From a bacterium (GTDB taxonomy: Bacteria; Armatimonadota; Fimbriimonadia; Fimbriimonadales; Fimbriimonadaceae): a stretch of DNA of 64,000 nucleotides. The stretch covers positions 372,001-436,000 of the forward strand of contig JAIXQR010000002.1 in assembly GCA_027485645.1 (NCBI GenBank), written 5' to 3'. The notes beneath the pieces are model-generated. The model was not told the origin of the DNA. It saw only the letters and a program-made list of their open reading frames with translations, and ran no database searches. How positions within the stretch are numbered: position 1 is the stretch's first letter; the number at the start of each line of letters is the position of its first letter. A program made the position numbers and the translations under genes. Shown piece by piece: positions 943 to 15,811 of this stretch.

Positions 943-1592
943 CGTGGCATCGCCTTGTCGCCAAGGAGCAAGTTCGTCAAGAAGTCAGCAATTGGCCCCA
1001 TGATGAGACCGAGAATCGATCCGCCTTGGACCGGAATCAAAACTAAGGCAAGAAACACAAAGCTACCAATCCCTCGATTAAATTGGAACCACTGAGTTCT
1101 CATGGGTTCTGGCAGAAACGCACCCACGATCCAATGTCCGTCGAGCGGTCCAAGCGGGATCATGTTGAACACCGCGAGCGAAACGTTTACGATCACGCCG
1201 AGAAGAAGGAAGAGCGCGATCATGCTGCTCAACGATCCCGACATGCTCAATCCCCGGAACAACACGGCAAAAATCGCTGCCTGAAGCAAGTTACTAATCG
1301 GCCCCGCAATGGCCACCAGCAAGCTATCCCAGCGCGGGTTGTTCATCTTGTCGTGCCGAACGATGACCGGCTTTCCCCAACCAATGCCATAGCCCGACCA
1401 GGCCGTAATTGCCATAAAGATCGTTCCCATCGGATCAAGGTGAGCGAGCGGGTTTAGCGTAACTCGGCCCATCATCCTCGGCGTCGGGTCGCCCGAGAGG
1501 TCCGCAATATAGGCATGTGCGAACTCATGAACCCCGATCGCGAGGATCAAGATGATCATTGTAAACAGGAAAAAAATGATCTTGCCGTCCAT
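939..1592 (-). CDS. Site-2 protease family (peptidase M50) membrane protein
   Basis: An intramembrane zinc metalloprotease of 217 residues. The zinc motif HEFAH is at residues 22-26 in the first membrane helix, and the second conserved element NMIPLGPLDGH at about 145-155 supplies the third zinc ligand (Asp). Four to five hydrophobic segments fill the rest. It has no PDZ domain, so it belongs to the compact group of M50 proteins of unknown substrate, distinct from the RseP-like protein at 4146-5450. Its ATG overlaps the lysA stop (TAATG) and its own stop overlaps trpS. Co-transcription with lysA and trpS looks like genomic packing rather than a shared pathway. Confidence 0.9.
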   Translation of the reverse strand: MDGKIIFFLFTMIILILAIGVHEFAHAYIADLSGDPTPRMMGRVTLNPLAHLDPMGTIFMAITAWSGYGIGWGKPVIVRHDKMNNPRWDSLLVAIAGPISNLLQAAIFAVLFRGLSMSGSLSSMIALFLLLGVIVNVSLAVFNMIPLGPLDGHWIVGAFLPEPMRTQWFQFNRGIGSFVFLALVLIPVQGGSILGLIMGPIADFLTNLLLGDKAMPR

Positions 1593-2941
1593 TACAAACC
1601 CTCCGGTAACTGCTCGCGCATGAGAATCTCTTCGTACGTTTCGCGCCGTTGCACAAGCGCAAAAGTGCCATCGGTCCTAACCAGAACCGAAGCAGGACGA
1701 GGATACCGGTTGTAGTTACTCGCCATCGAAGCGTTGTAGGCCCCCGTGCAGCCGACCTGAATAAAATCGCCGACCTGAGCGTCCGCCGGAAGCTCAACGT
1801 CGGTAAACAGCCGGTCCGTTTCGCAGTGCTTCCCGCTAATCGTAACGATCTGCTCCCGAGGAATCCCAAACGCCGCACCCGGACCGTCAACCTCGTAGTC
1901 CCAGGTGCTCCGATCCTCCGCCGGAACGAGCTCTACTGGGTACTGGCTGCCGTAAAGCGCCGGTCGCGGGTTGTCGCTAAGGCCCCCATCGACGCAAACG
2001 TAGGTTCGCGGGCCATCTTTCGCCGGGACTTTCTTGATCACGCCAACTTGATACAGCGTCACCCCGCTCTCACCGACACAAGACCGACCTGGCTCTTGCG
2101 CGAGCGTCAGTTCCGGAGTGTCCAGCGCCGTGCCACGGAAGGCGTTCTCAACCGCCTCAACGATCAAGCGGCAGTAGTCCTCAACCGGCATCGGAATGTC
2201 CTTGTCCGTGTACCGAATTCCCAGCCCTCCGCCAACGTTCAGATGCGTGGCCACAAAGCCATGCCGCTCGGCCATCGCCACCGCAAACTGCGTAATCGCC
2301 TCGCCGCCTGCCCGTTGCGCTTCCGGATCAAGCAATTGAGACCCAACGTGGCAATGGAATCCAACCAGGTTCAACCCAAGGCTCATCGCCAGCTTCGTCG
2401 CGCGTTCCGCGCTTCCATCCGCAATGTTGAATCCAAACTTGGTGTCCGACTGTCCGGTCGAAATCTTTGCGTGGGTCACCGGGTCCACGCCTGGCGCAAG
2501 CCGCAGCACGCAAGGGATCGACGGGTTCAGCTCCGCCACCCGAGCCATCTCGGGCTCGTTATCCAGCACGATCATCCCGATGCCTGCCGAGATGGCAAGT
2601 TCGATTTCGGCCAGTTGCTTGTTGTTTCCGTGCAGGTGACAATGGCTCGCCGGAACTCCCGCCGCAAGTGCAGCCGCCAGCTCGCCGCCACTTGCCACAT
2701 CAATCTGGAACCCTTCCTGATACGCAATCCGAAGCACCGCAAGGGTGGAATTTGCCTTCGAGGCATAGGTGAGTTCGGTTCGCGGATACACCGCTGAAAA
2801 CGCCGCCTTGTACCGTCGCAGTCGTTCCCGTAAGTGCGCTTCGTCCAACACGTAAAGCGGGGTTCCGAACTCCGCCGCAAGCGCCCGAACCTGCGCGGGA
2901 CTGAGACGCAGTCTGGCGTCGGCCCCTGCTCCAGATTCCAT
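1592..2941 (-). CDS. lysA: Diaminopimelate decarboxylase
   Basis: Converts meso-diaminopimelate to lysine with pyridoxal phosphate, the last step of lysine synthesis. At 449 residues it is slightly longer than typical (about 415-430). The PLP lysine is K62 in YASKAN. The HCHVGSQ strand, the glycine-rich GGGLGI loop, the EPGRSCVG phosphate-binding segment and the C-terminal CTGAYN element that completes the active site of the dimer are all present. First gene of the lysA-M50-trpS operon; it diverges from dxr with about 79 bases between the starts. No lysine riboswitch is visible in that gap. Confidence 0.95.
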   Translation of the reverse strand: MESGAGADARLRLSPAQVRALAAEFGTPLYVLDEAHLRERLRRYKAAFSAVYPRTELTYASKANSTLAVLRIAYQEGFQIDVASGGELAAALAAGVPASHCHLHGNNKQLAEIELAISAGIGMIVLDNEPEMARVAELNPSIPCVLRLAPGVDPVTHAKISTGQSDTKFGFNIADGSAERATKLAMSLGLNLVGFHCHVGSQLLDPEAQRAGGEAITQFAVAMAERHGFVATHLNVGGGLGIRYTDKDIPMPVEDYCRLIVEAVENAFRGTALDTPELTLAQEPGRSCVGESGVTLYQVGVIKKVPAKDGPRTYVCVDGGLSDNPRPALYGSQYPVELVPAEDRSTWDYEVDGPGAAFGIPREQIVTISGKHCETDRLFTDVELPADAQVGDFIQVGCTGAYNASMASNYNRYPRPASVLVRTDGTFALVQRRETYEEILMREQLPEGL

Positions 2942-3020
2942 TGGGAAAGTATGGCACCGTCCCCCTGACTAGGCCTCCACCAACGCAACCACCGCGATCC
3001 GAAGTAAGATATGCCGACGT

Positions 3021-4139
3021 ATGCGGAAGCGGGTAGTCGTCCTGGGTTCTACTGGAAGTATAGGGACCCAAACCCTGGACGTCATCGATCAAAACCCTGA
3101 ATCGCTCGAAGTCGTTGGACTCGCTGCCGGATCAAACGAATCTCTCTTGCTAGAGCAAGCCGCCAGATTTGGCGTCAAAAATCTTGCTCTCCACAATCCG
3201 AGCAAAACCGGCCTGCCCAGCGGAATGGACGCCATTCTCAACCTCGTTCGGCAAGAAGCCGTCGATGTTGTCGTTGTCTCGGTTGCCGGCGTGATCGGAC
3301 TTTTACCGACCATCGCCGCCATTGAAGCTGGAAAGCACATCGCGCTGGCCAGCAAAGAAGTCCTTGTTGCCGCCGGAGAGCTCGTGATGCCGATGCTGAA
3401 ACAGCACGGCGTAACCCTCACCCCGATCGATAGCGAACACAGTGCGCTCTTCCAATGTATGCAGGGAAGTCGCCCCGATCAAGTCGATCGGCTCATCCTC
3501 ACCGCCAGTGGCGGACCCTTCCGTGGCAAAAAGCGGGCAGACCTGCTCGACATCTCCGTAGACCAAGCGCTCAACCACCCCACCTGGCGCATGGGCGGCA
3601 AAATCACCATCGATAGCGCCACCCTCATGAATAAGGGCCTCGAAGTCATCGAAGCCAAATGGCTCTTCGACATGCGGCCCGACCAGATCGAGGTCGTCGT
3701 CCATCCGCAAAGCGTCGTCCATTCGATGGTCAAGTTCCGCGACGGCAGTGTCCTCGGACAAATGGGCTGGCCCGACATGCGGATGCCAATCCTTTACGCG
3801 CTTCAGTACCCAGAGCGCGTTTCGAACAACTTGAAGCCTTGGAACCCCGTCGATACTCCGACGCTTACTTTCGAGCCCGCCGACGACGAAACGTTCAGTT
3901 CCCTCCGGCTCGCGAAGCAAGCGCTCGAGGTCGGCGGCACCATGCCCTGTGCGCTGAACGCCGCAAATGAAGAAGCCGCAAACGCATTTCTTCGCGGCGA
4001 AATCGGATTCCTCGACATTCCAGAGGTCGTAGAGCGGACGATGCTGCAACACCGGCCAGAAGTCCCAACGTTAGAAAACATAACGCGCGTAGACCAAGAA
4101 TCCCGAGAGTTTGCGCGTAAAGTACAAACGACCGTCTAA
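3021..4139 (+). CDS. dxr: 1-deoxy-D-xylulose 5-phosphate reductoisomerase
   Basis: Second enzyme of the MEP isoprenoid pathway; makes 2-C-methyl-D-erythritol 4-phosphate using NADPH and a divalent metal. 372 residues. The NADPH loop GSTGSIG is at residues 9-15, metal ligands D137 and E139 are in PIDSEHSALFQC, and the flexible loop (SGGPFRG) and the NHPTWRMGGKITIDSATLMNK motif are intact. An ATG ten bases upstream is in another frame, so 3021 is the start. It is followed six bases later by rseP, the same order (dxr then rseP) seen in many bacteria. Confidence 0.97.
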   Translation: MRKRVVVLGSTGSIGTQTLDVIDQNPESLEVVGLAAGSNESLLLEQAARFGVKNLALHNPSKTGLPSGMDAILNLVRQEAVDVVVVSVAGVIGLLPTIAAIEAGKHIALASKEVLVAAGELVMPMLKQHGVTLTPIDSEHSALFQCMQGSRPDQVDRLILTASGGPFRGKKRADLLDISVDQALNHPTWRMGGKITIDSATLMNKGLEVIEAKWLFDMRPDQIEVVVHPQSVVHSMVKFRDGSVLGQMGWPDMRMPILYALQYPERVSNNLKPWNPVDTPTLTFEPADDETFSSLRLAKQALEVGGTMPCALNAANEEAANAFLRGEIGFLDIPEVVERTMLQHRPEVPTLENITRVDQESREFARKVQTTV

Positions 4140-4145
4140 CCCCCC

Positions 4146-5450
4146 ATGCTTGCCATCCTGAATTACATCTCGTACGGCGTCGTGCTGATCATCATCCTAA
4201 TGGTGCTCGTCGCCGCTCACGAATACGGTCACTACCTCTTCGCCCGAATCTTCAACATGGGCGTCGAAGAGTTTGCGATCGGAATGGGCAAGCCAAAGGT
4301 CATCACTTATCTTCGAAAGAAGCACGAACTTCCCGTGACCGCGACCGACGAACTCCCAGAAGGAGTTCAGCCCGGCGATGAGTTCGAAATCCAATCGCAA
4401 GGAATGTCGATGGAAGGCGGAACGGAGAAGCGTTTTGCCACCCTCAAGCGCACTGACAAGGGACTCGCGCTCGAAGAAGTTACCGATTTCACTATCCGGC
4501 CTTATCCCGTAGGCGGCTTCGTGCGAATCAAGGGCATGATTCCCCAGTCCGACGGTGCCGAGACTCGAGTACCCGGCGGTTTCTACAGCAAGCCCCCGCT
4601 TCAGCGATTGATCGTGCTCTTCGCCGGACCCCTGTTCAGCATCATCACCGGCATCATTCTGCTCGTTCCGGTGTTCATGTTCGATGGAAGGGAAGAACCG
4701 CTCAACAAGCCGATTCTGGGTGCCGTCGAAGCCAAAACCCCGGCCGATGTTGCTGGCCTCAAACCTGGGGATCGCGTTACCGCCATCGATGGCGCGCCGA
4801 TTAACACCTTCTTCGAAATGATCCAAAAGGTGCGAACCAGCGCCGGAAAGGAACTCGTTTTCAGCATCGAACGCCAGGGCGTCGCACTCGACCGAAAAGT
4901 CATGCCTGCTCAAGATGCCGCGCCAAGTCCTGTCCTTGGCCCCGATCTGCGCGACTCTGGTAGCACCGCGATTCAAGGAAAAATCGGCGTCGCCTACAGC
5001 GTCGAGAAAGCCAAGTTGTCGTTCGGTGACGCCGTCGCCACCGCTGTAGACACCCCCCGCCGAGCGATCTCGGGGATGGTCGTCACCTTCAGTAGCATCG
5101 CTGGCTTCGAGCGTTCTGTCGGCGGCCCCGGAACCATGTACAAGCTCTCCGAGCAAGCGGTGAACCTCGGCTTTGCCAAGGTGATCTCGCTCGCCGCGCT
5201 GCTCAGCATCTCCGTGGGAATTTTCAACTTGCTCCCGATCTATCCGCTCGATGGCGGGCAAATGGTCGTAGCCTTTGTAGAAATGCTGCGCGGCGGCAAG
5301 CGACTCAGCATGCGCCTACAAGAGCTCATCGGCACCGTCGGCTTCGCGATGGTCCTGCTGCTCTTCGTCAGCGTGCTCATCGTCGATGTCAAACGCTGGA
5401 TGCCCAAAGGCGATCCCGGTCCCGCGCTGGTCGCACCGACAAAGAAGTAA
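4146..5450 (+). CDS. rseP: RseP-like site-2 protease with one PDZ domain
   Basis: Membrane zinc protease that cuts transmembrane anti-sigma factors or signal-peptide remnants. 434 residues. HEYGH is at 25-29 in the first helix; a PDZ domain (GAVEAKTPADVAGLKPGDRV region) is at about 195-265; NLLPIYPLDGGQ, with the third zinc ligand, is at about 361-372. Between HEYGH and the conserved RPYPVGGFVRIKGM strand there is an insertion of about 65 mostly charged residues absent from the E. coli type, and one PDZ domain rather than two. It follows dxr by six bases. The ECF sigma/anti-sigma pair at 22-23.5 kb could supply a substrate, but that is inference. Confidence 0.93.
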   Translation: MLAILNYISYGVVLIIILMVLVAAHEYGHYLFARIFNMGVEEFAIGMGKPKVITYLRKKHELPVTATDELPEGVQPGDEFEIQSQGMSMEGGTEKRFATLKRTDKGLALEEVTDFTIRPYPVGGFVRIKGMIPQSDGAETRVPGGFYSKPPLQRLIVLFAGPLFSIITGIILLVPVFMFDGREEPLNKPILGAVEAKTPADVAGLKPGDRVTAIDGAPINTFFEMIQKVRTSAGKELVFSIERQGVALDRKVMPAQDAAPSPVLGPDLRDSGSTAIQGKIGVAYSVEKAKLSFGDAVATAVDTPRRAISGMVVTFSSIAGFERSVGGPGTMYKLSEQAVNLGFAKVISLAALLSISVGIFNLLPIYPLDGGQMVVAFVEMLRGGKRLSMRLQELIGTVGFAMVLLLFVSVLIVDVKRWMPKGDPGPALVAPTKK

Positions 5451-5463
5451 TCGGAGGGGAAGT

Positions 5464-5793
5464 GTGATTTTTGAAACTCCGGCTGGATTAAGCAACTTCG
5501 GCTTGTTGATGTCACTCGCCAGCGTAATCAGCATTGCGGTTGCGGGCACCCTTTTGATCGAGTTACCCGCCAAGCGCGGCCAATTTTCTGCCCCCTCGCT
5601 AGACTATATGGTCTTTCCGGCGTGGGCATGGATTACTGTTGGTTACGGACTTTTCGAACTGCGTTACGTTCTTTTCCGCCGCAACCTGCCAATGCTCGAT
5701 TATTGGATCCTCGGAATTTATGCCGTAACGATCGCGGTGATCGCGATCTTCCGATTATTCGCTTTAAGGCGAATGTGCTTGACCGGTGGCTGA
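5464..5793 (+). CDS. Small membrane protein of unknown function
   Basis: 109 residues with three predicted membrane helices (starting near residues 10, 45 and 80) and a basic C-terminus (RLFALRRM). The GTG start at 5464 is chosen because a strong ribosome-binding site (GGAGGGG) lies just upstream; an in-frame ATG further upstream lies inside rseP and would add unlikely residues. It begins 13 bases after rseP and is probably in the dxr-rseP operon. I recognise no family. The hydrophobic periodicity and operon position are what support it as a real gene. Confidence 0.7.
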   Translation: MIFETPAGLSNFGLLMSLASVISIAVAGTLLIELPAKRGQFSAPSLDYMVFPAWAWITVGYGLFELRYVLFRRNLPMLDYWILGIYAVTIAVIAIFRLFALRRMCLTGG

Positions 5794-5831
5794 GGTCTTT
5801 TCTTAGGCTCGAATCACCGGAAGCACCACCC

Positions 5832-6131
5832 TCAAGTCGTCAGAATCAGCACCTTCGCGACCGTCGTCCCCGCGAACCGCAGCGGTGTCACCTGCCGGAC
5901 CAGCCACGACTTGCCGTCGTGAACCAAGCCCGACCCGACCGGGGTCGGGTCATCGTAGGGAACATACAGCGCCCGAATCGGGCGCAAAACCGCGTCCGCT
6001 TCGTTCGTCGTCAAAAAATCCCGGTACCGCCGAGACGTCGCGATCAACCCCATTCGGACAACCCCGGAAACCGTAAAGTTATCGCCCAGGCGCAAAATCA
6101 CCGCTCGAAAGCGTTGCTGCGCTGCCGTCAT
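5832..6131 (-). CDS. Probable phage head-closure (stopper) protein
   Basis: 99 residues, last gene of the capsid cassette. The ATG at 6131 overlaps the stop of the preceding gene (ATGA), which decides the start over an upstream in-frame ATG. Size, position after the connector gene, and the C-terminal pattern (DGKSWLVRQVTPLRFAGTTVA) resemble head-closure proteins of the HK97 gp7/SPP1 gp16 type, which seal the connector after packaging. The identification rests on order and fold-like pattern rather than clear identity. The gene stops 38 bases short of the convergent small membrane protein, and no tail gene follows. Confidence 0.55.
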   Translation of the reverse strand: MTAAQQRFRAVILRLGDNFTVSGVVRMGLIATSRRYRDFLTTNEADAVLRPIRALYVPYDDPTPVGSGLVHDGKSWLVRQVTPLRFAGTTVAKVLILTT

Positions 6132-6514
6132 GTCGACAGCACCCCGCCGCCTTGGGTAGCCGCCCCGGTACGCCAAAACGGCATCAGCCGTGCCATGCCC
6201 TGAGCCTTCAATCCGCTCGGATCAGCCAGATCCCGCACCGGCGGACGGAGTTCAAACCCGTCCACCGAAATCGTGTCCGCGGCCCCAACTTCGCGCAACC
6301 GCTCCGCCAAAGCCTCCCCGGCAATCCACTCCGTTGCCCCGAGATTGCATATCGCTAGGACCCCGGAGTTAGTTCCGCTCACCGCCGAAGGCTGCAAGCT
6401 CGCCTCCAACGCCGGAAGCACCTCGTCAATCAAGGCCCGAAGCGCGGCGTCCTGGTCAGAACCAGAAACGCCGCACTTCGCCTTGATCCGGGTTAGGCTG
6501 ACGCTAAGCGCCAC
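6128..6514 (-). CDS. Probable phage head-tail connector (HK97 gp6-like)
   Basis: 128 residues. The N-terminus (SLTRIKAKCGVSGSDQDAALRALIDEV) matches the helical pattern of gp6-like connectors, in which a short 'L..VK..L.I....D..L..LI' segment starts the helical bundle. The GTG start at 6514 has only a weak ribosome-binding site. It overlaps the short frame at 6493-6579, suggesting coupled translation from the capsid gene. The connector would sit between portal and head-closure protein, but no portal gene is present in this window. Confidence 0.55.
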   Translation of the reverse strand: MALSVSLTRIKAKCGVSGSDQDAALRALIDEVLPALEASLQPSAVSGTNSGVLAICNLGATEWIAGEALAERLREVGAADTISVDGFELRPPVRDLADPSGLKAQGMARLMPFWRTGAATQGGGVLST

Positions 6515-6579
6515 GCCCGTTTCACCCGTTTAAGTGCAAGCACCAGCCAACGTCGAAGCTGCTCCTTCCAGCGAGCCAT
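6493..6579 (-). CDS. Possible 28-residue basic peptide between capsid and connector genes
   Basis: The major capsid gene ends TGATG, so an ATG overlaps its stop. The frame that follows encodes 28 residues, amphipathic and strongly basic (WKEQLRRWLVLALKRVKRAW), before a stop at 6493. Coupled translation is plausible and small genes are common here in phage head modules. It could also be just a ribosome path to the GTG start at 6514. No family recognised. Confidence 0.3.
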   Translation of the reverse strand: MARWKEQLRRWLVLALKRVKRAWRLASA

Positions 6580-7514
6580 CAAGAGAAGCCTCCGAAGGCG
6601 GTCTGCCAAAGCCCGTAGCCAACGTTGTATCGGCCGCGAACTCCGTAATAGAACCGATCTCGCATGAAGGCGCTCTCCGCTCCTGAGCTTTGATCCAGCG
6701 CATCGAACTCGACCGGAACGTCGCTTCGCTGCTGCAAAATCATGCTCCGAATCGGCCGCGAGCTATCCAGCAAGAACCAATGGTTCGCCGATGCTCCATT
6801 AAGGAACGGCGAAACCACGACGTTCAGCCGGCCTTGCAGCATGTTCTTGTACGGCGTGCTCGCGGCAGTATCGATCGAGTTGCCCGCGTACACCACCACC
6901 GGGCTCTCGACCAACTCCATCGCCGTCCACTGTAGGGCCGGACCGACGAGCAGCGTGTCCGGCATGGTCCCGAGCGGAACGCCCGCGTCGTCGGGCACCA
7001 ACATCATCGCGCTAATGCCCGCCGTGATCGCCGCCGCACTCAGCGCATCGGCCGAGCGGTTGCTCACCGTCGCCCCGTTCACCGGGTGCGAGGTGCTAAA
7101 GAACGAAACGCCGTCGTGCCCCAGCGCTGACGCACCCGCAACGAGCCCCTGAACCACCAACTGATGCCGGTGCGCCGCCACTCGCGTCGCCAAGTCCCGA
7201 ACTCGCAGCCGGATCAGATCAAGCTGATCATCCTCAATCGCCTTTCGGTCAACCGCAATCGTCGCCTCAAAAGTCTTGTCCTCGATGCTAGATGCGTAAG
7301 CGCTCAAGCCCTGCGGCGTGCGCTCATCCAGAAACTCCCGCATCGCCGGCGGCGAACCGAGCCACGCGTACTTCTGGACGGGTTGGGTGGTGTTGATCAC
7401 CGTCGCCAATCGCTCGGCAACGCTGTTGTCCATTACGTTTTGATAAGCCGCCGCAAACTCCGCACGGAGCCCCGGAAGCAAAAGGGTAGGAATGTCAGAT
7501 CTGGTAAGTGCCAT
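6579..7514 (-). CDS. Phage major capsid protein, Mu gpT-like
   Basis: 311 residues, about the length of Mu gpT. The N-terminal third follows the gpT pattern closely: an N-terminal arm, then 'KYAWLGSPPAMREFLDERTPQGLSAYA', 'IEDKTFEATIAVDRKAIEDDQL' and an 'H..LV..LV.GA' helix, as in the Mu-like head subunit family with the HK97 fold. It lies downstream of a protease/scaffold gene and a decoration-protein gene, the usual order in head modules. The reading frame is intact with no sign of decay. Expected role: self-assembling capsid shell. Confidence 0.82.
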   Translation of the reverse strand: MALTRSDIPTLLLPGLRAEFAAAYQNVMDNSVAERLATVINTTQPVQKYAWLGSPPAMREFLDERTPQGLSAYASSIEDKTFEATIAVDRKAIEDDQLDLIRLRVRDLATRVAAHRHQLVVQGLVAGASALGHDGVSFFSTSHPVNGATVSNRSADALSAAAITAGISAMMLVPDDAGVPLGTMPDTLLVGPALQWTAMELVESPVVVYAGNSIDTAASTPYKNMLQGRLNVVVSPFLNGASANHWFLLDSSRPIRSMILQQRSDVPVEFDALDQSSGAESAFMRDRFYYGVRGRYNVGYGLWQTAFGGFS

Positions 7515-7519
7515 AGGGT

Positions 7520-7960
7520 TTAGGAAACGTGGTTGTCGATCCGGACGCGTACTCCCGCCACGCCGGTAGAAGTCGTCTCAAGGCCAACGATGCGGCCGAT
7601 CTTGTAGTTGTTGGTGAGTCCAGAAGTCGAAACCTGAACCTCCCAATCGGTGTTCGCGTACACCTCGGCGCCCAAATTGGCGAGCGTCGGCGTAAAGCCC
7701 GAAGCGGCTTTGAAAACGAACGAGCCCGATTTGGCCGCGTTCAGTTTCTTCGCCCCGGCTTCTCCGGCCGAGTTATCCGCCGATTCCGTCGCGACGCCGA
7801 TGAACTTGAGGTTCGCCGTGCCGTGGGCCATCGCCACTGCGTGGCCGTCGGAATTAAGCCCGAGCAGGGCCCCCTTATAGATCGCGGCATTGGTCACCGC
7901 ATAGCCGATGATCAGTCCCGGCTTTTCGTAAGTTTCGAATGGTTTTGCAAGTGCAGGCAT
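7520..7960 (-). CDS. Capsid decoration protein (DUF2190-like)
   Basis: 146 residues, rich in beta-type sequence. The 'A..IYKGALLGLNSDGHAVAM' and 'KFIGVATESADN..GEAG' stretches are typical of small capsid-stabilising (decoration) proteins related to DUF2190, which bind the outside of an expanded shell. It lies between the protease and major capsid genes, five bases from each, all on one strand. I infer the role from pattern and order; the family match is likely but unverified. Confidence 0.65.
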   Translation of the reverse strand: MPALAKPFETYEKPGLIIGYAVTNAAIYKGALLGLNSDGHAVAMAHGTANLKFIGVATESADNSAGEAGAKKLNAAKSGSFVFKAASGFTPTLANLGAEVYANTDWEVQVSTSGLTNNYKIGRIVGLETTSTGVAGVRVRIDNHVS

Positions 7961-7965
7961 AAGGT

Positions 7966-8736
7966 TTATCGTTGTCGAGCGATCGCGCTCAGGGAAACGT
8001 CAGGGAAGTGGCGGCGGTAAAACTCCGCTTCTTCCGGGAGCAAAAGGTGGTTCGAGAAGTCAGCTTTTTCCGGCACCAGCTGCTGGGTGATGTCCCGGCT
8101 TGGCATCTGCTGAATCAGCTCTTGCACCAGCAACCGAACCGGCACAGACCTCCCGTCAACGTCCGTCACCTCCCGGCTGCGAAACAGCGCCGTCGCCGCG
8201 GCACGCTGGCAAGGCAGCAGGCGACCCTCTTTGATAAAGCGATCCGCTTCCACCTTCGCCATCTGGTTCTCCCGCTCGTTTCGGAGCGCCTCATAAGCCA
8301 TTCGAAAATCGATCGGATCAATCGTCGTCGCCTCAAACCGGATGAGGTCGTCATGGAACAGCCGTGCCGAAGCAACGCGAGGATTCCGCACCACGGAAAC
8401 TTCCCGAATCGTGGTGAGGTCCTGCGAAATCCCGAGCGAAAGCGCCCCTGCTCCCGACTTGTCAATCAGCGCGTTGGCCTCCGGCGAAAGCGAGAGCACG
8501 CCGAAAAGCTCGTTCTCCACCGCCTCAACCTCAACGAGAAATCCGAGTTGCAGCGGAGACTCCGCGTGCTCCACCAAAACGGGAACCGGCTGGCTGAATC
8601 CGTTGGCGAGCGTCTGCAAGGTTTCGGGCGCGACCGTCACCCCTTTGTCTGGGTAGTCGCCTGCTTCAAAGAGCTTCGCCCGGCGCCGCACCCAGTCGGC
8701 CCCTGGTCCTTTGTCAAGAAATTCAATTGACTGCAT
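7966..8736 (-). CDS. Phage prohead protease with scaffold-like tail (Mu gpI-like)
   Basis: 256 residues. The N-terminal half resembles Mu-type prohead proteases: 'LFEAGDYPDKGVTVAPETLQTLANGF', a likely catalytic His in VLVEH (about residue 57), then 'GFLVEVEAVENELFGVLSLSP' and a likely catalytic Ser in GALSLGIS (about residue 100). The C-terminal half is charged and helical, fitting a scaffold region. I use the ATG at 8736; a TTG two codons earlier is possible. The promoter at 8743-8772 would put the transcript start almost on this ATG, so the message may be leaderless. First gene of the capsid cassette. Confidence 0.65.
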   Translation of the reverse strand: MQSIEFLDKGPGADWVRRRAKLFEAGDYPDKGVTVAPETLQTLANGFSQPVPVLVEHAESPLQLGFLVEVEAVENELFGVLSLSPEANALIDKSGAGALSLGISQDLTTIREVSVVRNPRVASARLFHDDLIRFEATTIDPIDFRMAYEALRNERENQMAKVEADRFIKEGRLLPCQRAAATALFRSREVTDVDGRSVPVRLLVQELIQQMPSRDITQQLVPEKADFSNHLLLPEEAEFYRRHFPDVSLSAIARQR

Positions 8737-8742
8737 AGTCAA
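8727..8742. promoter_or_regulatory. 16-base palindrome over the protease start codon
   Basis: TTGACTGCATAGTCAA is a perfect palindrome spanning the ATG at 8736. It may be a second repressor site of the capsid cassette; the TTGACT half also recurs as the -35 box at 8767-8772. Confidence 0.35.
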
Positions 8743-8772
8743 AGAATAGTAGACAAAGTTCTACTAAGTCAA
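8743..8772 (-). promoter_or_regulatory. Promoter of the capsid cassette with operator-like inverted repeat in the spacer
   Basis: On the minus strand a -35 box TTGACT (8772-8767) and a -10 box TATTCT (8748-8743) are 18 bases apart. The spacer is almost filled by a perfect inverted repeat, TAGTAGA-CAAAGT-TCTACTA (8747-8766). A repressor bound there would block polymerase. Transcription would start near 8736, at the first codon of the protease gene. The boxes and repeat are seen directly; repression is inference. Confidence 0.55.
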
Positions 8773-8903
8773 CCATGAAAATTCGGAAAATTTTCCGACG
8801 AAGCCGCCCTCGAAGCTACGAAGCGGAAATTCTCGCGAATCGTTACCCCTGTCTTGAAAAGTCCTTTCTGTTAGGGAAGAATTCTGTATCGCCCCAAAAC
8901 GCC

Positions 8904-9260
8904 ATGAGGACGCCCGCCCGACAGCTAAGCGTATCTGCCTTCACGATGCTGTTCCTCGTGTTTGGGCTGTCCATCCGTCCAGGTCTTGAGTGGCTCTTTG
9001 TAGACCACGAATACGCCCGAACGGACGGAATGATCGGGAAGTCCAGCGCGGATGTAATCGCCGCCTTGGGAGATCCGACCGAGGTCTATAACAAAAAGCG
9101 ATTCTGGGAGCGCGACCGCTACGGAAACTTCCGCGGTTGGGACCCCGACCCGAACTATCCCATCGGCGAGCGGGCATTCTGCTACGTCATCGGCACAAAG
9201 CGAATCGTGTTCTACTTCGCCAACGACATCGTGACCGCCGTCAAGGCGTCTTATTCCTAA
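8904..9260 (+). CDS. BamE/SmpA-like small membrane-anchored protein
   Basis: 118 residues from the ATG at 8904. An in-frame ATG at 8775 would add 43 basic residues without obvious structure and would overlap the cassette promoter region, so I prefer the later start. One N-terminal membrane helix (about 10-27) is followed by 'GMIGKSSADVIAALGDPTEVYNKKRFWERDR', the 'G.s..eVi..LG.P' pattern of the BamE-like fold, then a hydrophobic strand (RIVFYFANDIVTAV). Function unknown; the fold assignment is tentative. Divergent from the capsid cassette, but no functional link is evident. Confidence 0.55.
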   Translation: MRTPARQLSVSAFTMLFLVFGLSIRPGLEWLFVDHEYARTDGMIGKSSADVIAALGDPTEVYNKKRFWERDRYGNFRGWDPDPNYPIGERAFCYVIGTKRIVFYFANDIVTAVKASYS

Positions 9261-9270
9261 CCCGCTCGGC

Positions 9271-9939
9271 TCAAAGTTCCATCGACCAGCTTTCCTGCAA
9301 GCCGTCGTAGGTCAGCGACTTCACGTGAAAGTCGCCATAAAGCGTGTTGTATCGGTAGCCCTGAATGTTGTTGAAGTAATCCCGAAGGCTATCCGTGGGC
9401 GTAATCGCCCGCGTCGATCCGTGCCAGTGCCCGGCTCCGTCAAACATCACGTTCACGTCCGAAGGCAATCGGAAATTGGTCTGGGTGAAGTACTTAAAGG
9501 CAATCTCGGTTCGGAAGAAATAGCTTGAACCGTAAACCTTCCACATGCTCGGCTCCGACCGAAACGGGGTCGGAAAGTGATTCTCGAGCACCTGAGTCCC
9601 CGAGTCGCCGGGGCAATGGAAAATGTCCTTGTTCTTGGCGTAAGGCTGAACCACCTCGTGCAGCAGCGGCATCGTGTCAATCCGGTTTCGGAACTCCGGA
9701 AAATCGTTCCAAATGTCCGGCGCAAACTTGTCGCTCGCATCCAGCGCGTGAGGGAACTGGTCCTCGTAATCCCCCATGTACAGCGCAATCGAAGCCCCGA
9801 TCTGCTTCAGGTTGCTGATGCACGCCGACTTCTTGGCCTCCGCCTTCGCCCGGGCAAAAACGGGGAAGAGAAACGCCGCCAAGATCGCGATGATCGCAAT
9901 CACAACCAGCAACTCAATAAGCGTGAAAGCGCGCCGCAT
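9271..9939 (-). CDS. Prepilin-like protein with type IV N-terminal methylation motif
   Basis: 222 residues. It starts [20 protein letters not shown]: short basic leader, prepilin peptidase site before F-T-L-I-E, then a long hydrophobic helix, followed by '[24 protein letters not shown]', characteristic of the large DUF1559-like pseudopilin families of Armatimonadota and Planctomycetes. The C-terminal domain has the H.P.D pattern ('FHCPGDSG') and a 'GAGHWHGS' segment. It probably sits in the membrane and is assembled or secreted by a type II/IV system not in this window. Convergent with the BamE-like gene. A 165-base gap separates its start from the divergent gene at 10105. Confidence 0.85.
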
Positions 9940-10104
9940 ACCGCTTCAGTTTACGACGACTTGGCCCGTAGCGTGGCAGCTTTTAGTCCTCTCCTCGCCA
10001 ACATCTGAAAGCTCGTACCGTCGGCCTAGACTTTTGCCTGCTCTATAGTCCAAAATGAGTGGTTGCGCCCCAACCTGCATCCGGGGCCAGCGTGAGGAAG
10101 CAAT

Positions 10105-11922
10105 TTGGCCAAGCAAGTCTCGTTTAAGCCCGAAGAAATTTCTGCCCGATCCTATGCGGATCGCCTGATTCTCGAGAAACTCACCGAGATGGAGGCCGCG
10201 ATCAAGCTGAGCGAACTCGCCGAAAAACTGGCGGAGAATGGCCTAGGCTTGGCAACCGTTCGATCCCTCTTGGCTTCGAACCCAGACCGATTCGCTTACC
10301 ACGAGCGACGCTGGATTCCGGCTGCCCGACTGATCACCCAGGGCCGCCCGCTTGCAGAAATCATCGCCGTCACCCTTGACCGATTCGGCGCTCCAATGCC
10401 GTTCGATCTTCTCGTGACCGAGATTTCGCGAGTCCGCAAAGAAGAAATTGAAGTCATCGAGCCTGTCGTCCTGCGACTCCTCGATCACGATTCCCGCTTT
10501 GCTTTCACCAACGAGCACGAAGTCGCCCTCACCGCTTGGAGCTTCGTCGCCATCGATGAAGAACGAGATCGTGGCCTCGCCCTCAACGGCCTCACGCCGG
10601 AAGAAGTCGAAATCATCGAAGCCCGACTCGGCAACTTCGACTGGCGAGCCGAAGACGCGGTCGCCGTTGCCATCGAAAAGCTGGCTCCGGCACGCCTAAA
10701 GGCCATCGGTGCGGCTTGCTGGAAGCAACTCAACTCCGAAGATCCAAAGTCGGTCCTCCTCTTCGATTTCCGCAAGTTCGCTGCCGACGCTTTCAGCGTT
10801 CCTGGCTTCATCTACTCGCCAGACGGCAACATCTACCCAGAAAAGGAAGCCACTAAGTGGATTTCTGGCGCGATCAAGCTGGCCGATAAGCTCGCCCCAT
10901 CCGTCGAAGTCGATGACGTCGCCCCGATGGAGATCAAGCCCGAAGACATCAGCAAGATGGTCGGCAAGATCGTTGGTGTCGATTCCAGCACCACCGCCCT
11001 CAAGCTTCTCGAAGAGAACTACGAGATCACGCCAGGCACCAAGACCTTTGTCGATGACCTTGCGAACATGATTGCCGCCCTCCAAGGCAGCTCCGATGTT
11101 GTGTGGGTCGGTGGAGACCGCTTCCGAAAGCCAGGTTCCATTCCCGATTACATCGCCGAAGTTCCCGAGCCGTTCTACTTCGTATCGTCCGACATCATGG
11201 ACGAGGAAGGCGAACTCATCGATGTCGAACTCACCGATGACGGCCTCAGCACCTCGCTGCGAAAGCTCCTTAGCCACCCGCTGGCGATGGACGTTCTCGA
11301 CGAAGACATTTCGCCAACGCCAAAGGTCATGCCAGACAGCGTTCGCTTGGTCCTCAAGTCCATCCACCGAGAACTCGGCACCTTCCCAATGTGCCAGCTG
11401 CCAACCGGATTCCTCGATGCCACTCCAAACGTTCAGGAGTTGATCATGCAGGACGCCGATGGCCGAGAACTCACGATCTGGGCCAACCACGAAGCCCGGT
11501 TGACCTACAACTGGATCGACTGGTGGTTCGAGCAGACCAACGAAAGCGGCGCCGTCTTCACCCTGACCAAGACCAACAAGCCAAACGTCTTTGACTTCGC
11601 TTGGATGGAACAGCCAGACCCCGTCGTCTACATCACCGTTCAGCGAATGGAAGAGCTCCGAAACATCGGTGTCGCTTCTGAAGGCAAGAGCATGCTTGAC
11701 GTTCTCGTCGAAGTCTTTGCCCACTGGCCAAAGGGCGCCGACTTCTTGACTCTCCTCGCGGAAGTTAACGTCGTCCGCCGAAGCAGCCGACGCCTCATCG
11801 CTTCGCTCCTCAGCAGCTACCAGTGCTTCTACCAGCGATCCGGAAGCCCGGTCTGGCACTTCGACGCCAAGAAGATCGATCTCGGCTTCGACAAGACGAA
11901 GCGAAAGTTCGTTCGAAAGTAA
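10105..11922 (+). CDS. Large protein of unknown function with winged-helix-like N-terminus
   Basis: 605 residues. The TTG start at 10105 follows a GAGGAAG ribosome-binding site at the right distance. I do not recognise a family. Residues about 20-75 (LILEKLTEMEAAIKLSELAEKLAENGLGLATVRSLLASNPDRFAYHERRWI) look like a winged-helix/HARE-HTH unit, and a second similar unit follows at about 85-145 ('LDRFGAPMPFDLLVTEISRV ... LLDHDSRFAFT'). The middle has further helical, acidic segments, and the C-terminus ends in a possible third wing ('VVRRSSRRLIASLLSSYQCFYQRSGSPVWHFD'). No signal peptide or membrane helix, so cytoplasmic. A regulator or nucleic-acid-binding role is inference only. Confidence 0.6.
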   Translation: MAKQVSFKPEEISARSYADRLILEKLTEMEAAIKLSELAEKLAENGLGLATVRSLLASNPDRFAYHERRWIPAARLITQGRPLAEIIAVTLDRFGAPMPFDLLVTEISRVRKEEIEVIEPVVLRLLDHDSRFAFTNEHEVALTAWSFVAIDEERDRGLALNGLTPEEVEIIEARLGNFDWRAEDAVAVAIEKLAPARLKAIGAACWKQLNSEDPKSVLLFDFRKFAADAFSVPGFIYSPDGNIYPEKEATKWISGAIKLADKLAPSVEVDDVAPMEIKPEDISKMVGKIVGVDSSTTALKLLEENYEITPGTKTFVDDLANMIAALQGSSDVVWVGGDRFRKPGSIPDYIAEVPEPFYFVSSDIMDEEGELIDVELTDDGLSTSLRKLLSHPLAMDVLDEDISPTPKVMPDSVRLVLKSIHRELGTFPMCQLPTGFLDATPNVQELIMQDADGRELTIWANHEARLTYNWIDWWFEQTNESGAVFTLTKTNKPNVFDFAWMEQPDPVVYITVQRMEELRNIGVASEGKSMLDVLVEVFAHWPKGADFLTLLAEVNVVRRSSRRLIASLLSSYQCFYQRSGSPVWHFDAKKIDLGFDKTKRKFVRK

Positions 11923-11941
11923 AGAACGAATCCCATCACGG

Positions 11942-11971
11942 TGGAAGGTGCCACAAATTAGGTACCTTCCA
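11942..11971 (+). promoter_or_regulatory. Hairpin between the 605-residue gene and the DHFR-like gene
   Basis: Arms TGGAAGGTGCC (11942-11952) and GGTACCTTCCA (11961-11971) pair over 11 bases with one mismatch and an 8-base loop. It lies 19 bases after the upstream stop and ends three bases before the GTG at 11975. There is no T-run after it. It could be a weak terminator of the upstream gene or a translation control of the downstream one. Confidence 0.45.
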
Positions 11972-11974
11972 AGC

Positions 11975-12487
11975 GTGACGATCACCCTCTTCATCGCAAC
12001 CAGCCTCGACGGATACATCGCGGGGCCGGACGACGATCTTTCGTGGTTGTTTACCGACGCCGACTACGGATTTTCTGAATTCTACGAGACCGTTGATGGT
12101 CTCATCATGGGACGCGGCACCTACGACGTTGTCCGAAAGATGGGCAAGTGGCCCTACCCCGGAAAGCCAACCTACGTTGTCTCCAAAAACGCCGATTTCA
12201 CGGTCGATACGCCCGATACGAAAGCTGCTACTGGCGAACTCGAAGACCTTGAAGTCGAACTCGTCGACCTCGGCCTGAAGAACGTTTGGCTCGTTGGTGG
12301 CGGCGAACTCGTCCGCTCGTTCCTCGATCAGCAACGTATCGATCGCATCGTCATCAGCATGCATCCTGTCCTTCTCGGACGCGGCGTTGCCCTCTTCGCT
12401 GGCGGATTCCCCGGCATGCGACTTAAGCTTGAGCACGCCGAAAGCTTCGATTCCGGCCTCGTTCAGCTGACCTATTTGACCGATTAA
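11975..12487 (+). CDS. Dihydrofolate-reductase-family protein (RibD/YyaP-like)
   Basis: 170 residues. It begins TITLFIATSLDGYIAG, the classic start of the RibD C-terminal/dihydrofolate-reductase-like domain, continues with 'LIMGRGTYDVV' and ends with the NADPH-binding 'NVWLVGGGELVRSFLDQQRIDRIVISMHPVLLGRG'. Members are NADPH-dependent reductases, mostly of unknown substrate; this is not the housekeeping FolA. I start at GTG 11975 so the protein begins one residue before the first strand; an in-frame GTG at 11948 lies inside the hairpin. Followed 57 bases later by thrS. Confidence 0.85.
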   Translation: MTITLFIATSLDGYIAGPDDDLSWLFTDADYGFSEFYETVDGLIMGRGTYDVVRKMGKWPYPGKPTYVVSKNADFTVDTPDTKAATGELEDLEVELVDLGLKNVWLVGGGELVRSFLDQQRIDRIVISMHPVLLGRGVALFAGGFPGMRLKLEHAESFDSGLVQLTYLTD

Positions 12488-12544
12488 CGCAGGTATCCTG
12501 CAGACGTTCACAACTCAATCCCGCTGTAAGGGAAGGACCATCTC

Positions 12545-14350
12545 ATGCGCTACGAAGAAACAAATCTCTATCGTCTCCGGCACTCTGCCGCCCACCTTCT
12601 GGCGCAAGCCGTTACCGAACTCTATCCCGGTGCGAAGCTCGCCATCGGCCCACCCGTAGAGAACGGCTTCTACTACGACATCGACTTCCCAACGCCATTG
12701 CGTGAGGAAGATCTGCCGAAGCTCGAGCAGAAGATGAAAGAGCTGGCCAAGCTCGATCAGCGCATTGAGCGCACCGAAGTCAGCCGAGAAGAAGCCCGCG
12801 CGCTCATCCTCGATGCCAGCATCCCCAGCATGGGCCCTGACGTCGCCGAGTACAAGCTCCAACTCCTCGACGCCATTCCAGAAGGCGAAACGATCAGCTT
12901 CTACAACCAGCAGCGGACCGACCGCGAAGGCGTCCTGCACCGCTTCTTAGACCTCTGCCGCGGACCGCACGTCGACACGACGAAGGAAATCAAGGCCTTC
13001 AAGCTCATGTCCATCGCGGGTGCCTACTGGCGCGGCGACGTCAAAAACAAGCAGCTCACGCGAATCTACGGCACGGCCTTCGAAACCAAAGAGGAACTCG
13101 AGCAGCACCTCTTCATGCTCGAAGAAGCCAAGAAGCGCGACCACCGCATCCTCGGCAAAGAGCTCGGCCTCTTCATGTTCTCGCCTCGCGTCGGAACCGG
13201 CCTCCCACTCTGGTTGCCCAAAGGCGCGACTCTGCGCCAGGTGATGATAGACTTCCTCCAAAAGGAGCAGGTCAAGCGCGGCTACGATCCCGTTGTGACC
13301 CCCCACATCGCCAGCATCAAGCTGTACGAAAAGTCCGGGCACATCATCAACTACCGCGACAAGATGTTCCCGTTCATGGAGGACCACACCGAGGGTAGCG
13401 AAAAGGACACCTACATCCTAAAGCCGATGAACTGTCCGTTCCACATCGAAATCTACGCGTCGCAGATGCGCAGCTATCGAGACCTCCCGGTGCGGTACGC
13501 CGAGTTCGGCACCGTCCACCGCTATGAGCAAAGCGGGGAAGTCACCGGCATCCTCCGCGCCCGAGGCTTCACGCAGGACGACGCCCACCTGTTCGTCCGC
13601 CCCGACCAACTTCTCGAAGAGTTCATCGGCGTGGTGGACCTCATGAAGACCGTTCTCAACAAGCTCGGCCTGACCTCCTACCGTGCGCGACTCGGAACGA
13701 AGGATCCGAACGACTCGAAGTACGTCGGCCATGACGATAACTGGAAGCTCGCTACCGCCGCCATCGAAGAAGCCTGCCAAAAGATGGGCCTCGAGTACGA
13801 AGTCTCCCCCGGAGACGCCGCCTTCTATGGTCCCAAGCTCGACTTGATCATCAAGGACGCCCTCGGCCGAGACTGGCAGATGGGCACCGTCCAGGTCGAC
13901 TACAACTTGCCGGAGCGATTCGAACTCGAGTACATCGGTGAGGACAGCAAGCCCCACCGCCCGGTCATGATCCACCGCGCCCCGTTCGGCTCGCTCGAGC
14001 GAATGATCGGCCTCATCACCGAGCAATACGCCGGCGCCTTCCCGCTCTGGCTCGCCCCGGTCCAGATCAGCGTCCTCGCGATCGCCGACCGCCATAACGA
14101 GCGAACGCTCGAAGTGGCCAACGAACTCCGCGAGACCATCTTTGACACGCGAAATCTTCGGGTGTCGATCGATGACCGCCGCGAAACCCTCGGTAAAAAG
14201 ATCCGCGATGCCCAGCTCGCCAAAGTGCCGTACATGCTCATCATCGGCGACAAGGACCTCGAAAACGGCACCGTCGGTGTCCGCTCGCGAGAAGAAGGCG
14301 ACCTCGGACCAATGACCCTAGAAGCGTTCTTGGCCCACATCAATAAGTAG
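12545..14350 (+). CDS. thrS: Threonyl-tRNA synthetase lacking the N-terminal TGS domain
   Basis: Charges tRNA-Thr. 601 residues against about 640 in the usual bacterial enzyme. The missing part is the whole N-terminal TGS domain: the editing-domain motif RHSAAHLLAQAV begins at residue 12, where E. coli has it near 70, and an in-frame TAA lies 18 bases upstream of the ATG, so no extension exists. The editing (SAD) domain, the class II catalytic core with MNCPFHIEIY zinc/substrate residues and the HRYEQSGEV motif 2, and the C-terminal anticodon-binding domain ('LAPVQISVLAIADRHNE') are all present. Ribosome-binding site AAGGGAAGG. No T-box leader seen. Confidence 0.95.
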   Translation: MRYEETNLYRLRHSAAHLLAQAVTELYPGAKLAIGPPVENGFYYDIDFPTPLREEDLPKLEQKMKELAKLDQRIERTEVSREEARALILDASIPSMGPDVAEYKLQLLDAIPEGETISFYNQQRTDREGVLHRFLDLCRGPHVDTTKEIKAFKLMSIAGAYWRGDVKNKQLTRIYGTAFETKEELEQHLFMLEEAKKRDHRILGKELGLFMFSPRVGTGLPLWLPKGATLRQVMIDFLQKEQVKRGYDPVVTPHIASIKLYEKSGHIINYRDKMFPFMEDHTEGSEKDTYILKPMNCPFHIEIYASQMRSYRDLPVRYAEFGTVHRYEQSGEVTGILRARGFTQDDAHLFVRPDQLLEEFIGVVDLMKTVLNKLGLTSYRARLGTKDPNDSKYVGHDDNWKLATAAIEEACQKMGLEYEVSPGDAAFYGPKLDLIIKDALGRDWQMGTVQVDYNLPERFELEYIGEDSKPHRPVMIHRAPFGSLERMIGLITEQYAGAFPLWLAPVQISVLAIADRHNERTLEVANELRETIFDTRNLRVSIDDRRETLGKKIRDAQLAKVPYMLIIGDKDLENGTVGVRSREEGDLGPMTLEAFLAHINK

Positions 14351-14359
14351 AATCCGCAT

Positions 14360-15097
14360 ATGCGGTTGAATCAACGAGGGAGCCTTTCAACCAGGCTCCC
14401 TTCTGCTACGTGGCGCAAGAGATTTCGCCATCGCAAGTCGACCTATTTGATCCTATTCGCGCTGACTTTGGTAGCGGGGATCATCTTGTTGACTCGCGAA
14501 TACGCATTATTCAAACTTGGCGCAGGCCCATGTGTGGCTGCAATCTACTTTCTAGTCGCGCTCTCTTGGCTCGCCGCAGGGACGCTGCACCGCAAGACAA
14601 ATGCCGTCCAAGTTGCCATCTTCATGATGAATTTTGGGTTTGTTTGCTTCGCTCTGGGTAGGGATTGGCGATCTACTGAGGCAGATAAAATGGGCAAAAT
14701 TCAAACTCAAAGGCTCAAATCACTCGCGCGAGCCACCGAACTCTATGCCGAAGACCATTCGGAGAAGCTGCCGCTCGCTAACGTGTGGATGGACTCAATT
14801 TCCGACCGGGTCAAAGAAGCAGATTTCAACCTCGGAACAACTTTGGTGCCGCCCATTCCGGGCTACCACGTTGCGATGAACTCAGATCTAAGCGGCAAAA
14901 GCCTTGCCGGGCTTGAATCGAAAAACAGATTCTGCCTATTCTTCATCTCCCATAAGTCCGAACGAAACGCCAACGACGCGCTCCACTCAATCACCGAAGA
15001 CCGCCTAGGCGTTAGCATCTCCGGCTTCGTGCGACCCTTTTCCGAAGCCGTTTCTCCCAACGAACCGAGAAGCCTTCCCAGCTCGATCAGTAAGTAG
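14360..15097 (+). CDS. Membrane protein with pilin-like globular domain, copy 1
   Basis: 245 residues. A basic N-terminus is followed by three hydrophobic helices (about 28-47, 52-72, 80-98) and then a soluble domain: 'RLKSLARATELYAEDHSEKLPLANVWMDSI' and 'GYHVAMNSDLSGKSLAGLES'. The soluble part resembles the C-terminal domain of DUF1559-like pseudopilins (the Y..D....LP.A..W pattern), but the prepilin leader is replaced by membrane helices. Starts nine bases after thrS. Paralogue of the next gene; function unknown. Confidence 0.65.
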   Translation: MRLNQRGSLSTRLPSATWRKRFRHRKSTYLILFALTLVAGIILLTREYALFKLGAGPCVAAIYFLVALSWLAAGTLHRKTNAVQVAIFMMNFGFVCFALGRDWRSTEADKMGKIQTQRLKSLARATELYAEDHSEKLPLANVWMDSISDRVKEADFNLGTTLVPPIPGYHVAMNSDLSGKSLAGLESKNRFCLFFISHKSERNANDALHSITEDRLGVSISGFVRPFSEAVSPNEPRSLPSSISK

Positions 15098-15106
15098 AAT
15101 CCACCT

Positions 15107-15811
15107 ATGCGGCTGAATGAGCGTGGAAGCCTTTTCACCGGCCTTCTCGGCAGCAAATCTGGGCGGGAGCGCATTCGACGCGCGACCTTTTACGTTTTAT
15201 ACATGCTCAGCACCTGCGCCGGGATGATCATGATCACGCGCGATTATGCCTCCCTTCGTGTCGGAGTCGAAGTTCACGCCGCTTCGATCCTTTTTCTAGC
15301 CATCCTGCCATGGCTGGTTGTCGGCGCGTCTTGGCGTGTTACGAAAGGACTGCACGGACCATTCCTTGCGACTCTAATTGGATTTGGTTGCCTGATTGTC
15401 GGCAGGGTTTTCCTATCGGCAAACGCGGCAAAGAATGCGGGTGCTCAATACAAAAAGCTCAAATCACTCTCCGAAGCCTCAGTACTTTACGCGGGCGATC
15501 ACTCGGAAGCGTTGCCACCCGCGAATGTCTGGATGGATTCGATCTCGAACCGCGTAACCGAGGAGGATTTATCCCTCGGTAAGAATCTGATGCCAGCACA
15601 AGATGGCTACCACGTCGCGATGAACTCGGACTTGAGCCAAAAGTCTCTCGAAAAGCTTGAGTCACCGGACGACAGCATCCTGTACTTCCTCTCGTTCAAG
15701 TCCGAGCGAAATGCCAACGACGCATTTCATTCAATCACGGAAATGCGTCGCGGCGTGAATCTTCTTGGAAGTGTCAGGCGAGTTCCGGAACTTACTTCTT
15801 CGCAACCTTAG
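15107..15811 (+). CDS. Membrane protein with pilin-like globular domain, copy 2
   Basis: 234 residues, same layout as copy 1: MRLNERGSL start, three hydrophobic helices, then 'KLKSLSEASVLYAGDHSEALPPANVWMDSI', 'GYHVAMNSDLSQKSLEKLES' and 'SERNANDAFHSITE'. The two proteins are far closer in the soluble domain than in the helices, so selection is probably on the soluble part. Its last 20 bases overlap the convergent gene at 15792-16208. Confidence 0.65.
   Translation: MRLNERGSLFTGLLGSKSGRERIRRATFYVLYMLSTCAGMIMITRDYASLRVGVEVHAASILFLAILPWLVVGASWRVTKGLHGPFLATLIGFGCLIVGRVFLSANAAKNAGAQYKKLKSLSEASVLYAGDHSEALPPANVWMDSISNRVTEEDLSLGKNLMPAQDGYHVAMNSDLSQKSLEKLESPDDSILYFLSFKSERNANDAFHSITEMRRGVNLLGSVRRVPELTSSQP

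Follow-up and report, generated by a model that had tools for sequence, protein, structure and literature searches.

Evidence for a domesticated and apparently tail-less phage head, split between two chromosomal operons, in a bacterium of the phylum Armatimonadota

We analyzed a 64,000-nucleotide stretch of DNA (the window; C4:372001-436000) from the 3.19-Mb genome of a member of the Fimbriimonadaceae (assembly GCA_027485645.1), in which five phage-derived genes form a capsid cassette at window positions 5832 to 8736. We conclude that the cassette probably encodes half of a DNA-packaging phage head that has been domesticated and is inherited vertically, a viriform resembling gene transfer agents (GTAs), apparently tail-less and perhaps under SOS control. 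The original prediction had offered three options, a remnant, a bare shell, or part of a split transfer-agent system, and of these, the last is supported most and the other two are disfavored. The elements of this reading differ in strength. It is highly likely that the head is domesticated and functional and likely, judging from the encoded proteins, that it packages DNA, while the balance tips only slightly toward there being no dedicated tail. The system is known here from its genes alone.

The other half of the head lies outside the window, 25 kb from the cassette, where TerL and portal genes form an adjacent, intact two-gene operon (C4:351487-353995) with unrelated chromosomal genes on both sides. 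TerL has an ATPase domain and an RNase H-like nuclease domain (PF03237 and PF17289); of 34 genomes, at least 95% keep its Walker A (GRRWGKT), Walker B (DE), and DD motifs. The cassette had been described as capsid only; for the genome as a whole, head only fits instead. The original prediction had also raised the alternative that portal, terminase, and tail genes make up a normal prophage elsewhere in the genome. Portal and terminase genes do exist, but they form no prophage: each has a single match in the whole genome, neither a sheath nor a tape measure was found there, and the ORFs surrounding the cassette and the TerL-portal operon encode housekeeping, secreted, or unknown proteins, with no tail or replication genes close to either locus. 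No integrase, primase, or regulator of phage-inducible chromosomal islands (PICIs) was recognized among the open reading frames (ORFs) at either locus, which were read without an integrase-library search. A prophage would be one contiguous element that also carries tail, integration, and replication functions; neither locus fits that description.

The five cassette ORFs were all present, intact, and tightly packed on the minus strand in the predicted order of protease/scaffold, decoration protein, major capsid protein (MCP), adaptor, and stopper, with 5 bp between each of the first three. The MCP is securely Mu gpT-like, with matches to PF10124 (E = 1.2e-55), to phrog_371 (E = 1.8e-61), and, as a profile, to the solved capsid chain of phage JBD30 (8rkx; E = 3e-63). 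Structure prediction, which had been proposed as a check on this protein, gave a model with a predicted local distance difference test (pLDDT) score of 82 and HK97-fold structural matches at Z scores of 14 to 17. The protease is identified through its relatives, because 8 of 28 match PF10123 (Mu-like_Pro; best E value, 3.7e-6) and one matches phrog_976 (7.8e-17); H56 and S99, the presumed active site, are invariant in 28 aligned rows, and a PDB sequence search with the protease profile returned nothing. The sequence evidence for the adaptor is weak (PF05135, E = 0.014 in the window protein, which is below the curated cutoff, and 0.0032 in the best relative), and its position and colinearity are conserved. 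The AlphaFold model of the stopper had a pLDDT of 91, and its best Foldseek matches include the lambda neck (8k37), R4C (8gtf), T1, and SPP1 (7z4w), with modest E values of 0.002 to 0.2 against phage stoppers; its relatives matched PF05354 (Phage_attach) at 1.5e-4. As predicted, the cassette is flanked by housekeeping genes (M50 peptidase, lysA, dxr, and rseP, with thrS further away), and the flanking ORFs include no terminase, portal, or tail gene close to it. The gap between the capsid and adaptor genes (window 6492-6578) holds just one 28-codon basic ORF (MARWKEQLRRWLVLALKRVKRAWRLASA); in most relatives, one or two small proteins of the membrane/coiled-coil type (cluster TM7) occupy the same gap.

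The two operons occur together in relatives. Among 85 family genomes, 47 had a capsid gene match, one of them weak, and 57 had a TerL match, a count that includes distant prophage-type matches. When only orthologues were considered, 43 genomes carried both, 3 carried the capsid gene only, 5 carried TerL only, and 34 carried neither (MCP-TerL co-occurrence; Fisher P = 6e-15). The distance between the operons ranges from ∼2.6 kb (G044) to ∼1 Mb (closed genomes G061 and G062). The search for the same five genes at the same site in relatives bore out the first half of this expectation, the genes being colinear within 6 kb in 22 of 24 loci, but not the second, as the housekeeping neighbors seen in the window stand beside the cassette in only a minority of relatives. 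The portal gene adjoins TerL, downstream of it, in 17 of 19 loci, and reading frames were intact in nearly all of ∼40 genomes. ORF clustering around both operons in ∼20 genomes gave no other widely recurrent neighbor except one family of small membrane/coiled-coil proteins within the capsid cassette. Across the Armatimonadota, the capsid gene was found in 123 of 291 genomes and 67 of 156 genera, mostly as a single copy. The nearest capsids in phage records have ∼34% identity to the window protein, and a scan of IMG/VR viral contigs found no close capsid relative. One 99%-complete genome (G033, locus L091) kept TerL and portal, and no capsid gene was found in it, possibly through partial loss.

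A comparison of the window genome with G009 gave nonsynonymous-to-synonymous rate ratios (dN/dS) of 0.025 to 0.11 for all seven genes at a synonymous divergence (dS) of 0.4 to 0.8, and the adjacent housekeeping genes gave ratios of 0.016 to 0.056. These similar values indicate that all seven head genes are under strong purifying selection, in line with the conserved dN/dS that had been suggested as a test. The tree of TerL plus portal shared 10 of 26 splits with that of protease plus decoration protein plus capsid, where 1,000 label shuffles shared a mean of 0.23 and a maximum of 3, and the distances of the two loci correlated (r = 0.79). One strongly supported conflict between the two trees lies within three species of one genus. 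Each locus tree had 8 to 9 splits in common with the ThrS tree, with no conflict at a support of 95. These trees indicate that the two loci co-evolve and that the head genes are stably inherited in a vertical manner, in partial agreement with the host tree and with no strong conflict.

In other Armatimonadota families, the head genes stand in one cluster of ancestral appearance, which starts with a helix-turn-helix (HTH) protein in the small-terminase position, followed by TerL, portal, protease, decoration protein, capsid, a variable protein, adaptor, and stopper. After the stopper come a coiled-coil protein that also has a membrane segment, next a holin-like protein, and then a peptidoglycan hydrolase that varies by lineage among five families (M15 peptidase, Amidase_3, M23, Amidase_2, and GH25). 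In tailed phages, the whole tail block sits after the stopper; no tail genes were seen between the stopper and lysis genes of these single clusters. The holin-like, XhlA-like, and variable proteins had no convincing PHROG or Pfam match, and the names holin-like and XhlA-like reflect only where the genes lie, how large the proteins are, and the hydrophobic or coiled-coil stretches visible in them. The variable protein, which occupies the capsid-adaptor gap in the distant families, ranges from 113 to 1,005 amino acids (L160 of G229, 5914-8931; L163 of G183, 4564-5622; L151 of G217, 10583-11098), had no Pfam match at all, and could, as a guess, be a head-borne adhesin. By analogy with GTAs and from the lysis genes of relatives, release of a GTA-like particle carrying host DNA is an even prospect.

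Two families depart from this layout. The clusters of family f13 (L152 of G129 and L162 of G135) have the same capsid and decoration genes with an S49-type protease and, in G135, a terminase of another family; they continue with a transmembrane (TM)/coiled-coil protein, a holin-like protein, and a GH25 lysozyme, and no tail genes. They appear to encode a variant head with swapped packaging parts. The locus of family f11 (L161 of G110, 1307-15989) combines a different terminase and portal (phrog_3753) and an S49-type protease with several large unknown structural-looking proteins and may represent a genuine phage or else a version that has a delivery structure.

The most serious rival to a tail-less head is a conventional tailed GTA spread over at least three loci, with tail genes elsewhere in the genome that are too divergent for our searches, an arrangement we consider unlikely. 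It has a precedent in the Rhodobacter capsulatus GTA (RcGTA), which is spread over five loci (PMC10883770), and it would explain why both adaptor and stopper are retained; a sheath gene is also present in G061, G062, and G241. However, searches with family models for two tail families, from which divergent tails could escape, found no tape measure (PF10145) over the cutoff and no sheath in the window's genome; among 20 near-complete genomes, this one included, 18 had no tape-measure match and 17 no sheath match. The tape-measure model did match in our positive control, the GTA-bearing Caulobacter (PMC9632790), and would therefore probably have revealed a GTA of that kind. The distant families, with lysis genes directly after the stopper and no tail block, also speak against it.

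Two further alternatives seem very unlikely to us. The first is a satellite-like tail thief, comparable to capsid-forming PICIs (cf-PICIs), that packages its own heads and borrows tails from infecting phages. The parts list, packaging plus capsid and no tail, resembles that of cf-PICIs, and the MCP model also matches the capsid of cf-PICI EcCI2 (Z = 15.8). Against this, integrase, primase, and PICI regulator went unrecognized at both loci, and the parts form no mobile island but are scattered in unlinked operons up to 1 Mb apart; they occur phylum-wide with largely host-like inheritance, keep the same housekeeping neighbors in several genomes, and are accompanied by lysis genes in several families. 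The second is an unreleased, cell-internal DNA or protein compartment derived from a phage head. Encapsulins share the HK97 fold and gave the best structural match to the capsid model (Z = 17.1), the TM/coiled-coil proteins in the cassettes of most relatives could tether heads to the membrane, and the operons in the window's own family have no recognized lysis gene beside them. But encapsulins have no TerL, portal, protease, or stopper, all of which are parts for packaging DNA, and peptidoglycan hydrolases of five families adjoin the clusters of relatives. The complete TerL and Mu-type portal, conserved and co-occurring with the capsid, lead us to reject an encapsulin-like shell and make the bare shell or compartment of the original prediction unlikely. 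Decaying prophage remnants, to which the missing tail and replication genes and the absence of the system from about half of the family might point, can be dismissed on the intact frames, the colinear cassettes, the purifying selection, the co-retention of two unlinked loci, and the phylum-wide occurrence.

The promoters of the two operons carry candidate control elements. In the capsid promoter, a GGTTGAC element is overlapped by a putative 20-bp palindromic operator (Table 1), which at up to two mismatches had no match across 100 shuffles of the window. In 26 of 34 genomes (27 when position -33 is counted), GTTGAC also lies 34 to 36 nucleotides ahead of the TerL start codon; in control genes, where any start among the first 60 codons was allowed, it stood at -33 to -37 in 25 of 647. 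By a strict pattern, 15 of 32 capsid promoters of relatives have related boxes. A further copy of the box precedes a gene for a sigma-like regulator 46 kb from the capsid promoter. The same box precedes homologues of this regulator in G008, G039, G010, and G026; those of G010 and G026 are 3 to 4 kb away from TerL or capsid, and in the distant G217, the homologue (5e-18) immediately adjoins the head cluster. Because GTAGAC, the half-site of the box, recurs in all 13 lexA promoters examined (as GTAGACA or GTAGACG), LexA is the simplest guess for the factor that binds it, and these motifs leave SOS control of the system about evenly poised. Box and regulator are candidates, respectively, for an SOS box and an activator in a phylum that has received little study. 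A core GTAGA-N5-GTCTAC near dinB falls within the first codons and may be a coding coincidence; we did not use it as evidence.

Table 1. Features of the head operons and their putative control elements (window positions unless prefixed C4)
Feature	Coordinates	Strand	Remarks
Prohead protease (Mu gpI-like)	7966..8736	-	256 aa; probable ATG start at 8736
Decoration/virion structural protein	7520..7960	-	146 aa; phrog_1731, E = 1.9e-20
Major capsid protein (Mu gpT family, HK97 fold)	6579..7514	-	311 aa
Head-tail adaptor (gp6-like connector)	6128..6514	-	128 aa
Stopper/head-closure protein	5832..6131	-	99 aa; ATGA overlap with adaptor gene
Putative 20-bp palindromic operator, TAGTAGA-N5-GTCTACTA	8747..8766	-	Inside capsid-operon promoter
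TTGACT -35-like element (GGTTGAC)	8767..8772	-	Common to capsid and TerL promoters
Portal (Portal_Mu)	C4:351487-352584	-	E = 2.5e-61
TerL (Terminase_6)	C4:352553-353828	-	E = 4.5e-13
Box copy	C4:331953-331972		1 mismatch; directly before regulator gene
Sigma-like regulator	C4:331985-332401	+	138 aa; weak sigma-70 region 4 similarity

A related TAGTA...GTCTACTA box was seen in genus g32, which is without the gpT system and has another phage-derived head set amid housekeeping genes (L100 of G077, 2465-8986 and 13740-15996; L120 of G081, 7678-12025). This set comprises a small HTH protein, a divergent TerL, an HK97-type portal, a protease, an HK97-like capsid, neck-like genes, and a CHAP-like endolysin. 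The box is in the promoter region of a sigma-like gene, which in L100 is divergent from an S24-type repressor. The g32 set may be an independent second system that shares this control.

These observations suggest how the system might work. Upon DNA damage, a LexA-type repressor would leave the palindromic box, allowing expression of the capsid operon and of the sigma-region-4-like activator, which would in turn help transcribe TerL and portal from the GGTTGAC promoter. The gpT subunits would assemble on the portal, and the protease would mature the shell. TerL would then pack DNA, most plausibly the host's because no phage genome is present, and adaptor and stopper would plug the portal so that the DNA is held without a tail. 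Cell lysis would release tail-less, DNA-filled heads in the manner of a GTA. The widest form of this proposal, an ancient, phylum-wide, tail-less GTA with a head of the HK97 lineage, regulated by SOS and released by lysis, we put forward only tentatively.

Several observations weigh against a released, vertically inherited, SOS-controlled, tail-less head. The conserved neck proteins are the strongest hint of a possible tail encoded elsewhere, since genes of the adaptor and stopper kinds usually function in attaching tails; stoppers also retain packaged DNA, so their conservation is explicable without a tail. TerL-portal distances correlate weakly with those of ThrS (r = 0.24), and occasional transfer is therefore possible. 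The system is dispensable, being missing from about half of the family and, within the same genus, from most members with large genomes. Neither operon had a recognizable lysis gene beside it in the window's own family, and the window genome is without the small cassette membrane proteins found in most relatives. As for SOS control, the spacing of the half-sites in lexA promoters is unlike that of the box, and the core GTAGA-N5-GTCTAC is not enriched genome-wide, its count equaling that of the reversed control.

We found no description of this system in the open-access literature searched, and it shares features with several known ones. Like encapsulins, it is a domesticated HK97-fold shell; unlike them, it has terminase, portal, protease, and stopper, and its capsid is gpT by sequence rather than of the encapsulin families. 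With cf-PICIs, which carry packaging and capsid genes and no tail as summarized in PMC11389934 (citing Alqurainy 2023), it shares capsid and packaging genes without tail genes, but those are mobile islands that steal phage tails, whereas here the operons are scattered on the chromosome, phylum-wide, and accompanied by lysis genes in relatives. The closest phage parts are those of Mu-like siphophages such as Pseudomonas phage JBD30, which have a gpT capsid, a Mu-type portal, and a gpI-type protease; the window capsid aligns with 8rkx over 216 residues at 35% identity. Unlike this system, those phages have tails, transposition, and replication genes.

In a 2023 account, GTAs fell into three proposed families, of which two are alphaproteobacterial and the third is from spirochaetes, with at least three independent phage ancestors; they are usually described as particles like small tailed phages (PMC9953437). 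The present system has in common with them structural and packaging genes of tailed-phage origin (TerL, portal, protease, capsid, adaptor, and stopper), vertical inheritance, purifying selection, and, as far as the surrounding ORFs could be read, particle genes free of adjoining integrase or replication genes. It would work like a GTA head; tail and transfer, which also belong to the definition of a GTA, lie outside what the genes attest. As in RcGTA and the Caulobacter crescentus GTA (CcGTA) (Rhodogtaviriformidae), domesticated head genes are spread over several chromosomal loci, inherited vertically, and kept under purifying selection. GTAs of that kind are linked to LexA and SOS (PMC6473078, PMC9638019), and RcGTA has the host-integrated activator GafA with a sigma-like domain in addition to LexA involvement (PMC9638019); here, there is a sigma-like regulator with a possible link to LexA, not recognizably homologous to GafA, although the two were not compared directly. 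Unlike RcGTA and CcGTA, this system has a Mu gpT capsid and a Mu-type portal, pointing to a different phage ancestor, belongs to a different phylum, has no recognizable tail, and keeps its capsid and terminase operons separate. If our reading is correct, a head-only system in a different phylum is a further, very old domestication beside the known GTAs. It suggests an undescribed kind of cell-made, DNA-carrying particle in a phylum of little-known bacteria and raises the question of whether a portal-plugged HK97 head can move DNA between bacteria without a tail or has been selected for another role.

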